Source: Chitinophagales bacterium (lineage in GTDB: Bacteria; Bacteroidota; Bacteroidia; Chitinophagales; UBA10324). From it: a DNA stretch of 64,000 nucleotides. The stretch covers positions 1-64,000 of the forward strand of contig JACDDS010000016.1 of assembly GCA_013816805.1 (NCBI GenBank), read 5' to 3'. Both the position numbers and the translations under genes were made by a program. A model generated the notes under the pieces. That model worked only from the letters and a program-made list of their open reading frames with translations, was not told the DNA's origin and searched no databases. The first letter of the stretch is position 1, and every line of letters begins with the position of its first letter. This document shows, in pieces, positions 40,181 to 46,504 of the stretch.

Positions 40181-42691
40181 ATGCAGCTAGAAGAATTTGA
40201 AACTGATATTACAGTATTTGCAGAAGTGATACTTCCCTTATCACTTCAAAAAAACTATACATATGGCATTCCAAAAGAATTTGAAGACACAGCTGCTATT
40301 GGAAAAAGAGTGGAGATTCAATTCGGGAAAAAAAAGATATACGCGGGAATTATAAAAACCATTCATAATGAAGCTCCTAAAGAATACAAGATTAAACCCA
40401 TCCTTTCTGTGCTGGACGAATATTCTATCGTATCTAAAACGCAGCTTACCTTTTGGAAATGGATGGCAGATTATTATGTGTGCGCCGAGGGTGATGTAAT
40501 GAATGCTGCGCTGCCATCAGGTTTCAGGCTAGAAAGTGAAACCAGTATTATTTTGCATTCCTCCATTTCAGAGCAGAATCCAAGGGAAAATGCTGACTTC
40601 AGCCACCTTTCAGACAAAGAATATTTAGTGGCTGAAGCGATGTTAGTGGAGCATGAACTCAGCATAGATGAGGTAAGCAAAATCCTACTTCAGAAAACGG
40701 TTTATCCTGTTATTCAATCATTGCTTAAAAAAAATATAATCACGATTAAAGAAAAACTCATTGAAAGATATCACCCTAAAATGGAAACGTGGATCAGTCT
40801 AAATCCCGATGCAGCAAATGATGAAAAATTAAAATCATTATTCGATGAGCTGGAGAAAAAGGCACCGGGGCAATTGGCGGTATTGATGGCATACATTCAT
40901 CTCTGTAACCTGCAAAATGATAAGGGCTACCGTGAAATTCTTAAATCTGATCTTATCGAAAAATCGAAAGCAGGAAATGCAGCTTTGAACGTACTGGTAA
41001 AGAAAAAAATATTGTTTCAGCATAAAAGAGAAATAGGAAGAGTAATCGACCCAAATACAGAAAGTGAAGCCTTTCAGCTCTCTTCGCAACAAGCCGCAAC
41101 ACTGCAGCAGATCAGGAAAGAATTTGAAAGTAAAAATGTGGTACTTCTTCACGGAGTAACTGCAAGTGGAAAAACAAATCTCTATGTGCAGCTCATGGAA
41201 GAGGTAATGGCCAGGGATCAGCAAGTCCTGTACCTCCTTCCTGAAATAGCGCTTACCTCACAAATCATTGACCGGCTTCGAAAATATTTTGGCAGCAAAA
41301 TCGGTATCTACCACTCCAGGTTCAATACTGCCCAGCGTGTAGAGATCTGGAACAAGCTTCTGAATGGTGAATACCAGGTCATCATTGGCGCGCGGTCCTC
41401 TTTGTTTCTTCCCTTTGAAAATTTAGGGCTATTAATAGTGGATGAAGAGCATGATTCTTCCTACAAGCAATATGATCCTGCACCACGCTATCATGGAAGA
41501 GATGCGGCGATTTATCTTGCCTCATTGTTTAATGCGAAAACTATTTTAGGAAGCGCCACTCCTTCTCTCGAAAGCTATTACAATGCGGACAAAAAAAAAT
41601 ATGGCTTTGCAGAATTGACGGAGCGCTACTCCGGTATAGAGATGCCTGAAATTGCCATGGCGGATTTGAAAGAGGAGAAGAAAAGGAAAACAATGCATTT
41701 GCATTTTAGCAGTAAGCTATTAGATGGAATGAAAGCTGCATTGGATAGAAAAGAACAGGTCATCTTATTTCAAAACAGGAGGGGATATGCTCCTTACCTT
41801 CAATGCGAAAATTGCGGCTGGGTTGCCATGTGCCCCAATTGTGATGTGCACCTGACGTATCATAAATTTCAGCATGAGCTGCGATGTCACTACTGCAGCC
41901 ATAGAAAAAATTCATTCCGTCAATGTCCTGCATGCGGCAGCAGCCACCTCACCGTTTCAGGTTTCGGAACAGAAAAGATTGAAGAGGAGTTGCAGCTATT
42001 TCTGCCCGGTACCATCATCAGCCGTTTCGATCTGGATGCTATCAAGGCAAAGCACGGTTATCAAAAAATTATCAGTGATTTTGAGAGAGGTAAAATCCAG
42101 GTTTTGGTGGGGACGCAAATGGTGACCAAGGGGCTTGACTTTGAGAATGTTTCTCTTGTCGGGGTAATGAATGCAGACCAGTTGCTTAACTATGCTGACT
42201 TCAGAAGTGCTGAACGCGGTTTTCAGCTGATGTCGCAGGTGAGTGGGCGCGCAGGAAGAAAAAAGAAACGCGGAAATGTAACTATACAAACCATGCAGCC
42301 GGATTTACCACTGCTTCAGCTCATAGTGAATCATGATTACAGAGGTTTTTATAATGCTGAAATCATCCACCGGAAAAAGTTTTTTTATCCGCCGTATTCC
42401 AGGCTGATTCAATTACTTTTTAAACATAAAGAAAAGAAGAAAGCCTGGGAAGCTGCGACCATTATCGGTGATGCATTACAGAAAGAACTGGGAAAAAAAG
42501 TATTGGGTCCGGCGGTGCCATCAGTGTCCCGCATTAAAAATTTATACCTCTTTCAGTTGCTGGTCAAGCTGGATCGTTCGGGTGCATTGATACTTCATAT
42601 TAAATCTCTGATCCGGGAAAACTTGCTAAAGCTTGGAGAAAATACTTTGTATAGAAGTGTGGATGTGGCGGTGGATGTAGATCCGAATTAA
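40181..42691 (+). CDS. priA: Primosomal replication helicase PriA
   Basis: An 836-residue superfamily 2 helicase for replication restart. The N-terminal 3'-DNA-end-binding domain begins VILPLSLQKNYTYGIP. Walker A is HGVTASGKTNLY (about 325-336), the DEAH-type box is VDEEHDSSYKQ, and the zinc-binding insert has four CxxC pairs (CENCGWVAMCPNC, CHYCSHRKNSFRQCPAC). Motif V-VI is GTQMVTKGLDF and SQVSGRAGR. Length is typical for Bacteroidota PriA. Confidence 0.96.
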   Translation: MQLEEFETDITVFAEVILPLSLQKNYTYGIPKEFEDTAAIGKRVEIQFGKKKIYAGIIKTIHNEAPKEYKIKPILSVLDEYSIVSKTQLTFWKWMADYYVCAEGDVMNAALPSGFRLESETSIILHSSISEQNPRENADFSHLSDKEYLVAEAMLVEHELSIDEVSKILLQKTVYPVIQSLLKKNIITIKEKLIERYHPKMETWISLNPDAANDEKLKSLFDELEKKAPGQLAVLMAYIHLCNLQNDKGYREILKSDLIEKSKAGNAALNVLVKKKILFQHKREIGRVIDPNTESEAFQLSSQQAATLQQIRKEFESKNVVLLHGVTASGKTNLYVQLMEEVMARDQQVLYLLPEIALTSQIIDRLRKYFGSKIGIYHSRFNTAQRVEIWNKLLNGEYQVIIGARSSLFLPFENLGLLIVDEEHDSSYKQYDPAPRYHGRDAAIYLASLFNAKTILGSATPSLESYYNADKKKYGFAELTERYSGIEMPEIAMADLKEEKKRKTMHLHFSSKLLDGMKAALDRKEQVILFQNRRGYAPYLQCENCGWVAMCPNCDVHLTYHKFQHELRCHYCSHRKNSFRQCPACGSSHLTVSGFGTEKIEEELQLFLPGTIISRFDLDAIKAKHGYQKIISDFERGKIQVLVGTQMVTKGLDFENVSLVGVMNADQLLNYADFRSAERGFQLMSQVSGRAGRKKKRGNVTIQTMQPDLPLLQLIVNHDYRGFYNAEIIHRKKFFYPPYSRLIQLLFKHKEKKKAWEAATIIGDALQKELGKKVLGPAVPSVSRIKNLYLFQLLVKLDRSGALILHIKSLIRENLLKLGENTLYRSVDVAVDVDPN

Positions 42692-42739
42692 GCTTGAACT
42701 TAGGGGTTAATCCAACCTGCTGCACTGAAAAAATTCCGG

Positions 42740-42747
42740 TAACTTTG
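42740..42747 (+). promoter_or_regulatory. Candidate -7 box for hicBA
   Basis: TAACTTTG matches TAnnTTTG and lies 15 bp upstream of the preferred hicB ATG at 42763. A -33 TTG is not found at the usual spacing. It favours the short hicB start and independent transcription of the pair. Confidence 0.4.
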
Positions 42748-42762
42748 AAAATAAATTTCAAT

Positions 42763-42978
42763 ATGAAGTTAACTCTCGTGGTTTATCAGGGCGAAGACGG
42801 GTTCCTTGTAGGTAAAATCAAAGAAATTCCGGAGGTAATGTCTCAGGGCACAACGAAAGAAAATTTAAGAATGAATATTCTTGACGCGCTGAATACTTAT
42901 TATGATGATTTGAGAACCGAAAGCGGAATTGAACCCTCAGCATTATCTACTGAAGAACTTACGCTGTCAATTTCATGA
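42763..42978 (+). CDS. HicB-like antitoxin
   Basis: A 71-residue protein starting MKLTLVVYQGEDGFLVGKI, with the partial RNase H-like HicB fold (IKEIPEVMSQGTTKENLRMN). The longer frame from 42694 includes a non-homologous leader and is rejected. No C-terminal DNA-binding domain is present, so autoregulation may be absent or rely on another factor. The stop overlaps the hicA ATG (ATGA at 42975), giving the antitoxin-first order. Confidence 0.72.
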   Translation: MKLTLVVYQGEDGFLVGKIKEIPEVMSQGTTKENLRMNILDALNTYYDDLRTESGIEPSALSTEELTLSIS

Positions 42979-43169
42979 AGCATAAAAAGTTCATCAGGCA
43001 TTTGAATGATCATAATTGTTTCTTTCACCATCATGGGGCAAACCACGATATTTACAAGAATAACTCTAATCAGAGGAAAACCACAGTTCCCCGACATACC
43101 GACATTGATAAATTTCTCTGCAAAGAGATATGCAAACAACTCGAAATCGATTTTCCTAAAAGCTTCTGA
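42975..43169 (+). CDS. HicA-like mRNA interferase toxin
   Basis: A 64-residue basic protein with the HicA dsRBD-like fold. The probable catalytic histidine lies in FHHHGANHDIYKNN, and the C-terminal TTVPRHTDIDKFLCKEICKQ matches the PRH(xx)I segment of the family. HicA toxins cleave mRNA when not bound by HicB. It is translationally coupled to the preceding antitoxin gene. Confidence 0.75.
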   Translation: MKHKKFIRHLNDHNCFFHHHGANHDIYKNNSNQRKTTVPRHTDIDKFLCKEICKQLEIDFPKSF

Positions 43170-43288
43170 GAAATAAACCGCGCCAGGCATCCAGACGAAT
43201 AATTCCTTAAGCTCATATTAAACTTTCTGAGAATTTTCAGCTCTTACTTTACTAATGTTGCCACCACTAACCTGTAAACGTACCCATT

Positions 43289-43366
43289 GTGAAAAATTTT
43301 AAGATTCTGCTTATTGCAGATGAAAGGAAAAATGTTTTGCAAACAGGAAAAGAGGTGAAAGAATAG
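43289..43366 (+). pseudogene. Tail relic of a T9SS propeller gene
   Basis: An in-frame stretch ending ADERKNVLQTGKEVKE and a TAG, which matches the extreme C-terminus of the three T9SS genes downstream (for example RDEKGNVLQTEKVVKQ). Sequence upstream of it does not encode the remaining sorting domain. It is followed by the same leader sequence that precedes the 43876 gene. It is read as what is left of a former tandem copy. Confidence 0.6.
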
Positions 43367-43516
43367 CTTATAGTTTTATTCCGCATTTCTTCCATTAAAC
43401 TATTGATCGATATTAAGGTCTTCAGGATGACTTCAATAAATTTATAGATGAAGACACCAATACTTTCCTTCCTGTTTCAATTTTTAATTTTTCAAATAGC
43501 CTATGCTCAGGTATGG
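43364..43516 (+). repeat. Direct repeat copy A (T9SS gene leader and signal sequence)
   Basis: About 150 bp running from a stop codon through the intergenic leader into a signal-peptide-coding region. It matches copy B at 43793-43944 at most positions, including TATTAAGGTCTTCAG and TCAATAAATTTATAGATGAA. It marks unequal duplication of a whole gene unit. Confidence 0.75.
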
Positions 43517-43795
43517 TCACCTCTGCAAAACGGAGTACAAGCAAAAGACAGCATCTTTGATAAGTCAACTGTTCTAACCCTTTTTTCGGATACTATAAAT
43601 CTCCATATTGAAGCATCAAGCCTCCACAATGCAACCGTCACTATTTTAAACCTGTTCGGGCAGGCTGTGATGAAGCAGCAGTTTTCCGATAACGCATCGA
43701 TTAACATTTCGACGCTGGCAAAAGGAATATACCTGGTAAATATTATGGATGAAAGAAGAAATGTTTTGAAGGCCGAAAAAGTATTAAAGGAATAG
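43448..43795 (+). CDS. Mini T9SS protein: signal peptide joined to sorting domain
   Basis: A 115-residue protein made of the same signal peptide as its neighbour (LSFLFQFLIFQIAYAQVW) joined, after about 20 unrelated residues, to the sorting domain (SLHNATVTILNLFGQ, KGIYLVNIMDE). The propeller body of the neighbouring genes is absent. The usual YPNPA start of the sorting domain is degraded to LFSDTINLHIEA. It is an intact frame with its own leader. It could be a decayed internal-deletion product or a small secreted peptide. Confidence 0.65.
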   Translation: MKTPILSFLFQFLIFQIAYAQVWSPLQNGVQAKDSIFDKSTVLTLFSDTINLHIEASSLHNATVTILNLFGQAVMKQQFSDNASINISTLAKGIYLVNIMDERRNVLKAEKVLKE

Positions 43796-43944
43796 CTAAT
43801 AGCTTTACTTTAATTTCTTCCGTTAAACTTCTGATCCATATTAAGGTCTTCAGAATGATTTCAATAAATTTATAGATGAAGACAACGATACTTTCCTTCT
43901 TGTTTCAATTTTTAGCTTTTCAAATAATCTATGCTCAGGTTTGG
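43793..43944 (+). repeat. Direct repeat copy B (T9SS gene leader and signal sequence)
   Basis: Second copy of the roughly 150-bp unit at 43364-43516, here leading into the full-length propeller gene. Differences are mostly single substitutions. Confidence 0.75.
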
Positions 43945-45183
43945 GCTCCATTAGGAAATGGTGTAACGGCGGAACATAAGAATGACTATGCTAAGGTGAA
44001 TACCTTTTCTGAAGATACCGTTAATCATCTATTATATGTAGGTGGTGATTTTTATTATGCTGGAGATACGGTATCGAGATACTTAGCAATTTGGAATGGA
44101 ATAGAATGGCATACTGTTGAAAGCGGCGATATTTCTATTTCTGGCCCTGTGACCGGCAGTTATATGCTTCATGACACTGTGCTTTACTCTAATTCTCATG
44201 GTATAGGGCGATTTCATAATCATAAATTCCTCGAGGATTTGCCAGGTGTAGGCGGCGCGGTACGTGCCTTCATGATGTACCATGATACTCTTTTTGCAGC
44301 AGGAAGTTTTTTCGGAGGCATTAAAAAATATAATGGAAAGAAATGGGAGATAGTAGGCGGAGGTGTATATAATGCCTATGATCTGTGTATTTATAATGAT
44401 CAGTTAATTGTTGGGGGTTCATTCACTGAAGCTGGTGATTCGGTTGCACATGACATCGCCGCATGGGATGGAAATACTTGGCATAGCCTTGGAAGTGGAA
44501 CAAAATATAACCAGTTTCAAACTTCAGGTATTATTGAAGCTTTGACCGTCTACAATAATACAATTATTGCCGGTGGATTATTCGATCACGCAGGTGATAG
44601 CACAGCTCATTATGTAGCGCAATGGGACGGAGTAACATGGCATCCGATGGATGGATTATGTGACGAAGTGGTGGATTTGTTTTCAGATGGGAAGCATGGT
44701 GTATATGCCTGCGGATGGTTTGGGATGAATAAAAGCGGTAAGTGTGCTGCCAATAGAGTTGCATACTGGAATGGGAGTGAGTGGTCAGATTTAGATTTTG
44801 GTGAAATCGACCCGGTATTTTGCATGAACTTCTTTGATAATGATTTATATGTCGGAGGAATTTTTACACGAGCCGGTGACGTAGATGCCAACCATATTGC
44901 GCGGCTTGAAAATGCAATTGCTACTTCTTCACCATCGATCACTCATAACCAAACCTTAGACTTCTATCCCAACCCCGCCACCGACCAACTGCATATTGAA
45001 ACACCCAACATCCACAATGCAACCGTTACCATTTTAAACCTGTTAGGTCAGGTTGTGTTGCAGCAGGAGTTTTCAGATAACGGATTGTTTGATATTTCAA
45101 ATCTGCCAAAAGGAATGTACCTGGTAAATATTATGGATGGAATAGGAAAGGTTTTGAAGAAGGGGAAAGTAGTTAAAGAATGA
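43876..45183 (+). CDS. Secreted beta-propeller protein with T9SS sorting domain, copy 1
   Basis: A 435-residue protein: signal peptide ending YAQ, about six propeller-like repeats of the form LIVGGSFTEAGDSVAHDIAA followed by WDGNTWHSLGSG, and a T9SS type A domain (FYPNPATDQLHIE to KKGKVVKE). The repeats resemble Kelch/galactose-oxidase-like secreted proteins of Bacteroidota. No catalytic residues are evident. It sits 4 bp before a paralogue with the same layout. Confidence 0.85.
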   Translation: MKTTILSFLFQFLAFQIIYAQVWAPLGNGVTAEHKNDYAKVNTFSEDTVNHLLYVGGDFYYAGDTVSRYLAIWNGIEWHTVESGDISISGPVTGSYMLHDTVLYSNSHGIGRFHNHKFLEDLPGVGGAVRAFMMYHDTLFAAGSFFGGIKKYNGKKWEIVGGGVYNAYDLCIYNDQLIVGGSFTEAGDSVAHDIAAWDGNTWHSLGSGTKYNQFQTSGIIEALTVYNNTIIAGGLFDHAGDSTAHYVAQWDGVTWHPMDGLCDEVVDLFSDGKHGVYACGWFGMNKSGKCAANRVAYWNGSEWSDLDFGEIDPVFCMNFFDNDLYVGGIFTRAGDVDANHIARLENAIATSSPSITHNQTLDFYPNPATDQLHIETPNIHNATVTILNLLGQVVLQQEFSDNGLFDISNLPKGMYLVNIMDGIGKVLKKGKVVKE

Positions 45184-45187
45184 AATT

Positions 45188-46504
45188 ATGAAAAAGTTTT
45201 TACTCCTTTTAAGCTTTTTATTTTTTCAATACGCCTCCGTAGCCCAGACTTGGATCCCTTTGGGTGTGGGAATAGGTAGCGGGATTGTAGGTGCCTATAT
45301 CAATACAATGGTTTTCGATTCCACCCATAATTACCTTTATGTAGGAGGTAATTTTTCTTATGCAGGTGATAATCCTGCAAACAGCATAGCCTTTTGGGAT
45401 GGAACTGAATGGAATAGCTTGGAGATAGACACAAACTATGAAGGAGAATATACGAAACTTTTGAATTATGATGATACCATTCTCATTGCCGATCCATTCG
45501 GAAGAATATTGAAACTTTATGATACCAGTATTGTCGGACGAGTAAGTTCATTGAATGGGAAAATAAGAGATCTTATAGTTTATAATGGTGAATTATATGC
45601 CTGTGGTGATTTTATTTCAGACTATGATGATCATCCCTTAAATAAAATTGCCCGATGGAATGGAGAAAAATGGCAGTCCCTTGGCATAGGCATACAAGGA
45701 CAGTATATTACTTCTATGAATATTTATAATGGGAATCTAATAGTAGGAGGAATATTCGATAAGGCCGGAGACTCATCAATGAACAATATTGCCGGTTGGG
45801 ATGGAAAGAATTGGTTCTCACTTGGTAAGGGCATTACCTGGACACAGTCTACCGCTGTTGTGTCAGCTATTGAAATCTATAAAAATGAATTATATGCAGG
45901 AGGGGTCTTTGATTCGGCAGGAAATCGCTTTGCAAAGAATATTGCAAAATGGAATGGGGCAAATTGGGATTCTGTAGGAGCTGGTCTGCTAGGAGGAGTA
46001 CTTTCATTATTATTTAAAGATAGTAGCTTGTATGTTGGGGGAGGCTTTAGAACTTATGGTGTGTATATTGGAAATAGAGTAGCCCGTTGGGATGGAAATC
46101 ATTGGTTCGATCTGGATCTTTCAACAAGTGGAACTGTACATGATCTTATTCCTTTTAAAGGGAGTGTCATAGCTGGTGGTAATTTTACAAATACGAATGA
46201 TGGTAAAACTGTAAATAATATAGCTGAATATTCAACTATTACCAATACGAATTATATATCGCCTAAAGCGGCTAAATTTTATATCTACCCCAACCCTGCC
46301 ACCGATCAACTGCATATTGAAGCGACAAACATCCATAATGCAACTGTCAATATTTTAAACCTGTTCGGGCATGTTGTGTTGAAGCAGCAGTTTTCAGATA
46401 ATGCATCCATTGATATTTCAAATCTGCCAAAAGGAATGTACCTGATAAACATTAGGGATGAAAAAGGAAATGTTTTACAAACAGAAAAAGTGGTGAAGCA
46501 ATAA
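45188..46504 (+). CDS. Secreted beta-propeller protein with T9SS sorting domain, copy 2
   Basis: A 438-residue paralogue of the preceding gene. The signal peptide (FLLLLSFLFFQYASVAQ) is more divergent than the rest. Repeats such as LYVGGNFSYAGDNPANSIAF and WNGEKWQSLGIG follow the same pattern, and the sorting domain (YPNPATDQLHIEATNIHNAT) is very close at both protein and DNA level. It is probably cotranscribed with copy 1. It converges on the PaaN-like gene. Confidence 0.85.
   Translation: MKKFLLLLSFLFFQYASVAQTWIPLGVGIGSGIVGAYINTMVFDSTHNYLYVGGNFSYAGDNPANSIAFWDGTEWNSLEIDTNYEGEYTKLLNYDDTILIADPFGRILKLYDTSIVGRVSSLNGKIRDLIVYNGELYACGDFISDYDDHPLNKIARWNGEKWQSLGIGIQGQYITSMNIYNGNLIVGGIFDKAGDSSMNNIAGWDGKNWFSLGKGITWTQSTAVVSAIEIYKNELYAGGVFDSAGNRFAKNIAKWNGANWDSVGAGLLGGVLSLLFKDSSLYVGGGFRTYGVYIGNRVARWDGNHWFDLDLSTSGTVHDLIPFKGSVIAGGNFTNTNDGKTVNNIAEYSTITNTNYISPKAAKFYIYPNPATDQLHIEATNIHNATVNILNLFGHVVLKQQFSDNASIDISNLPKGMYLINIRDEKGNVLQTEKVVKQ

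Follow-up and report, generated by a model that had tools for sequence, protein, structure and literature searches.

Within the window, by which we mean the whole 64,000-nucleotide stretch analyzed here (contig C16), an array of secretion-related genes occupies 43.3 to 46.5 kb. It comprises, in this order and all on the forward strand, a tail relic, a mini-gene, and two full genes, gene 2 and gene 3. The array is flanked upstream by priA and then a small gene for a HicA-type toxin, accompanied by a short HicB-like partner, and downstream of gene 3 by an aldehyde dehydrogenase gene on the opposite strand. The tail relic (43312..43366) retains the last ~18 codons and the stop of the sorting domain of a vanished T9SS gene, with 47 bp at 81% DNA identity to a sorting-domain end (46457-46503), and the DNA 5' of it (42600-43311) gave no match to any family member. 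The toxin (PF07927) and its HicB-like partner, at 42763-43169, lie directly upstream of the relic and may have replaced the gene lost there.

An 81-nt leader (leader 1, 43367..43447), which aligns with seven other leaders of the gene set, precedes the mini-gene (43448..43795). This open reading frame of 115 aa matches PF18962 (E = 1.9e-10); its signal peptide and the opening part of blade 1 are fused, at "..LHIEA", to a sorting domain without the YPNP start. Leader 2 (80 nt, 43796..43875), from the same leader alignment, is followed by gene 2 (43876..45183, 435 aa), which is made up of a signal peptide (43876..43938), a beta-propeller passenger (43939..44956), and a T9SS type A sorting domain (44963..45183; TIGR04183 E = 8.9e-16) that is common to 11 other places in the genome. 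Gene 3 (45188..46504, 438 aa) starts 4 nt after gene 2 without a leader; its signal peptide is of another kind and its propeller passenger a distant relative (together 45188..46283), and it ends in a sorting domain of the same type (46284..46504; TIGR04183 E = 6.4e-16), which is 89% identical in DNA to that of a kelch gene, C14f. The original prediction had placed a tail relic, a mini-gene, and two full paralogues within 3.2 kb, and all of these were located. The repeat that it described as leader plus signal peptide does occur twice (43319-43516 versus 43748-43944, 83%), although the unit reaches into the end of the preceding sorting domain and is better written as sorting-domain end, leader, and signal peptide. 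The sorting domains of the mini-gene, gene 2, and gene 3 are, as had been noticed, highly similar in DNA (82-85% identical).

Genes 2 and 3 resemble T9SS type A proteins (TIGR04183/PF18962) in having a probable Sec signal peptide, a passenger, and a C-terminal type A sorting domain (CTD) above the curated cut-offs. All three sorting domains in the window matched both PF18962 (41.3, 55.5, and 60.1 bits; curated cut-off, 27) and TIGR04183 (39.4, 57.6, and 58.1 bits; curated cut-off, 23). Both full genes matched Rax2/DUF5122 propeller models in Pfam, and AlphaFold2 modeled gene 2 as a beta-propeller with a C-terminal beta domain (pLDDT 81). The N-terminal Sec signal peptide, MKTTILSFLFQFLAFQIIYAQ, was judged by eye, and the AlphaFold2 model has a low-confidence N-terminal helix. 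The best solved-structure match of the gene 2 model in Foldseek was PorZ (PDB 5m11), likewise a beta-propeller surface protein of the T9SS, at a low TM of 0.47 and 14% identity. PorZ, however, is a component of the secretion system, whereas genes 2 and 3 are cargo-like, and we regard them as predicted T9SS type A cargo. They differ from type A proteins at large in one respect: most CTDs in this genome are ~27% alike, whereas the 12 of this set are near-copies whatever the passenger.

Eight array leaders carry an invariant TTAAAC and GGTCT, spaced 16 nt apart in the leader alignment; this element lies at 43395..43421 in leader 1 and 43823..43849 in leader 2. Across 3.57 Mb, the only eight exact matches to a degenerate pattern fell in these leaders, two kelch leaders included. 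With up to two mismatches allowed, a reversed-pattern control gave three matches, equal to the number of non-array matches. Because these leaders supplied the pattern, a match to them carries no information of its own, whereas the lack of exact matches elsewhere does; homology among the leaders is also a confounding factor. We take the element to resemble ECF-sigma promoters and call it promoter-like. The genome encodes 14 Sigma70_r2 proteins, none of which adjoins the arrays. A search for structured RNA in the leader gave no Rfam match, and the SigP motif of P. gingivalis (PMC4800418) bears no resemblance to the element.

A whole-genome DNA search with the CTD found 12 places, each a full copy, and no other match. 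Three are in the window, one is at C14:78 kb, four are at C14:103-108 kb, and four are on C29. There are thus four array sites, namely the window, C14:77-80 kb, C14:101-108.6 kb joined to C8, and contig C29; the propeller family occurs also on C1, C2, C3, C9, C14, C23, and C29. The end of C14 (L023:14981-15107) and the start of C8 (L025:1-127) overlap by 127 identical bases; they are probably neighbors and together complete the propeller gene C14c. The start of C23 (L026:1-365) and the end of C3 (L028:5123-5492) are 97.6% identical over ~370 bp, a possible repeat or join. In 15 other genomes of the family, no comparable CTD DNA match was seen, only one 29-bp stretch, and the best match in a wider search of genome contigs was 29% at the amino acid level. 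The evidence on exchange thus comes from one assembly.

The passengers that bear the shared CTD are varied: propellers, two kelch proteins, and proteins of 308 aa and 497 aa, the last two of which had no Pfam match besides the CTD. Pairwise dS among the 11 intact CTDs was 0.18-0.76 (median, 0.44), with dN well below dS, the mark of purifying selection. Among related passengers dS was 1.0-3, the truncated C14 near-copy of gene 2 excepted, so that, judged by synonymous sites, the CTD is more recent than the sequence around it. Genes 2 and 3, for example, have bodies that are 41-43% identical in amino acids, with saturated synonymous sites (dS of ~1.7). Within the cluster, CTDs are 69-89% identical in amino acids, but the preceding 150 aa are only 15-51% identical, and solely gene 2 and its C14 near-copy reach 76% there. 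The genome has at least 150 CTDs, of which 80 outside the cluster were sampled and 90 in total were compared; the 3960 other CTD pairs had a mean amino acid identity of 27% and a maximum of 51%, the latter for a gene-duplicate pair. CTD distance and passenger distance were uncorrelated (Mantel r = 0.07, p = 0.33), and CTDs did not group significantly by array (r = 0.11). In ordinary paralogues of this genome, used as a control, the protein sequence of the CTD diverges as much as that of the passenger or more quickly, except in a C9/C23 pair in which it is somewhat slower.

These values rule out a recent whole-gene tandem duplication. The original prediction had seen in the array a family caught duplicating and decaying, and the decay is evident in the relic, the mini-gene, and broken copies in the sister arrays. 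Recent duplication of the propeller genes is not supported, given passengers at dS 1.0-3 against ends at ~0.4, with the same ends also on unrelated passengers. When aligned, the gene 2 and gene 3 bodies are only distantly related (41% aa), an outcome that the prediction itself had named as refuting recent duplication.

Leaders, signal peptides, and CTDs also change partners at module boundaries. Gene 2 and the gene at C1:391121 share passenger and linker (68% DNA identity over 43996-44939) but their leaders, signal peptides, and CTDs differ. The near-copy on C14 (L022:2143-2916) is 94% identical to gene 2 in the body (19/333 differences) and 83% in the CTD (38/221; Fisher p = 2e-5 for body versus CTD), with a dS of 0.19 in the body and 0.53 in the CTD (p = 0.017). 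Just after the signal peptide it is instead nearer the C1 gene (84.5%). As the two genes have a recent body in common and yet have CTDs as far apart as any, a replacement of the CTD after the duplication is implied. In C29C, a gene 3-related body follows a leader and signal peptide like those of gene 2, with the homology (89%) ending at gene nt 62, that is, at the end of the signal peptide. In C29E, the shared leader and signal peptide precede a body that resembles C1:403199 (C1b), and C14b has them with a CTD of noncluster type. The leader element is missing from gene 3, C29D, and C14d, whose signal peptides are of other kinds.

Debris accompanies these switches. The sister arrays contain frameshifted or truncated copies; a single base is deleted in the CTD of C29B, and the C14 near-copy of gene 2 has lost its blades through an in-frame deletion whose junction lies at a REP palindrome. 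The core of this REP is identical to one beside an upstream RAYT-like gene. That Y1 transposase gene, with REP palindromes, lies at L022:1400-2330 (C14:76.9-77.8 kb), and its family match is below the Pfam cut-off. No REP palindrome of the C14 type is present in the window, and the mini-gene there therefore needs another cause than the C14 deletion. The two sides of its junction fall within blade 1 and within the sorting domain, so that the mini-gene looks like the product of a low-homology deletion rather than of a crossover between leader and sorting domain. The proposal of unequal recombination between leaders and sorting domains is supported as regards recombination in these segments but fits the mini-gene less well. 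Near its contig end (L021:1-120), the propeller gene C29E gives way to different sequence, which looks like the terminal part of an insertion-sequence transposase. A phage origin was considered and rejected, there being just one weak phage tblastn match.

Young ends are thus shared by old or unrelated passengers, and we consider it likely that ectopic recombination or gene conversion homogenizes the CTD, leader, and signal peptide ends among this four-site set of T9SS cargo genes. Each gene consists of a leader, usually with the promoter-like element, a putative Sec signal peptide, a passenger, and a type A sorting domain. The CTD of one gene adjoins the following gene's leader and signal peptide, so that blocks of ~200-400 bp with 80-90% DNA identity alternate with diverged passengers. 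RecA-type homologous recombination between blocks, as conversion tracts or crossovers, would keep the ends alike and would also let passengers change ends, while relics and mini-genes would be leftovers of end exchange or of separate internal deletions. We infer recombination as the agent from the pattern of sharing. A possible benefit is that varied surface propellers, kelch proteins, and others would all share one frame for export and expression.

Alternatively, one CTD with its leader may have been copied in a one-time burst onto many passengers by illegitimate recombination, followed by independent divergence. The CTD tree is near-star with no strongly supported branch, pairwise CTD distances are similar, and the PHI test within CTDs, which has low power on such a short near-star segment, gave no sign that incompatible sites are clustered (p = 0.28 at 40 nt); such a burst would fit all three. 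Incongruence between the CTD and passenger trees is favored by the Mantel result and the pairwise switches, whereas clade tests gave p just under 0.05 in two of six cases and ~0.11 in the rest (range, 0.04-0.12; uncorrected for multiple tests). The near-star tree and the PHI result mean that repeated conversion and a single burst of end capture are not fully separated. A burst is nevertheless rather unlikely as the whole account, because gene 2 and its C14 near-copy have a recently duplicated body and distant CTDs, which implies a later replacement.

Ordinary tandem duplication and divergence, with the CTD kept alike by selection on the protein, would fit adjacent paralogues of one fold and a CTD under purifying selection. 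We regard it as highly improbable, in that protein constraint does not bring dS from saturation to 0.44, the identical CTD type sits on nonhomologous passengers, and elsewhere in the genome CTDs tolerate identities of 27%. Still less credence is due to chimeric assembly joins between repeated CTDs. The sister arrays do lie at contig ends (C29, C14/C8), but the longest exact repeats are 35-45 bp, far under the 127-bp contig overlap, and between copies 10-20% of sites are different. The array in the window lies in the interior of a 100-kb contig, the longest exact repeat there is 35-38 bp, and misassembly inside the window is unlikely.

We examined linked CTD pairs in 80 loci of other Bacteroidota; the loci were found with a CTD-containing query, and thus they do not yield frequencies. 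Linked pairs at L101 and L073 behave as plain duplicates. CTD dS was much lower than passenger dS in Chryseobacterium (L113; dS of 0.12 versus 1.35), Zunongwangia (L093; 0.19-0.36 versus 1.45-1.79), and Adhaeribacter soli (L127; 0.35 versus 1.88). Shared CTDs were found on unrelated passengers in Flavobacterium microcysteis (L121; CTD 76%, upstream 18-19%), a member of the Chitinophagaceae (L103), and Winogradskyella (L118). A wider possibility, which we put forward tentatively, is that the surface proteomes of Bacteroidota evolve, as a general mode, by concerted CTD evolution with exchangeable leader and signal peptide ends, with one dedicated promoter-like element shared in the present case.

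Pilin and vls cassettes are surface families driven by gene conversion. They resemble the present set in the concerted evolution of repeated coding segments, but there the exposed part changes, whereas here it is the export parts that are homogenized and the exposed part that remains diverse. T9SS surface proteins are already known to shuffle domains, and the nearest case is the gingipain/HagA group of P. gingivalis, T9SS surface proteins that are rearranged and diversified by recombination between repeated modules (PMC5266723). The repeats in that system are internal adhesin modules; here they are both ends, and the passengers differ. We found no description of homogenized ends around free passengers in the open-access literature.

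Genomes with a T9SS can carry >100 diverse CTDs. On the question of how new passengers acquire one, this locus shows CTDs and leaders reused across passengers, and in gene 2 and its C14 near-copy the exchange can be dated relative to a duplication. Comparing CTD dS with passenger dS provides a simple genome-wide test, and trees based on CTDs need not track passenger history. If the mode is general, a genome would keep sets of cargo genes in which recombination homogenizes the export ends while the passengers vary freely.
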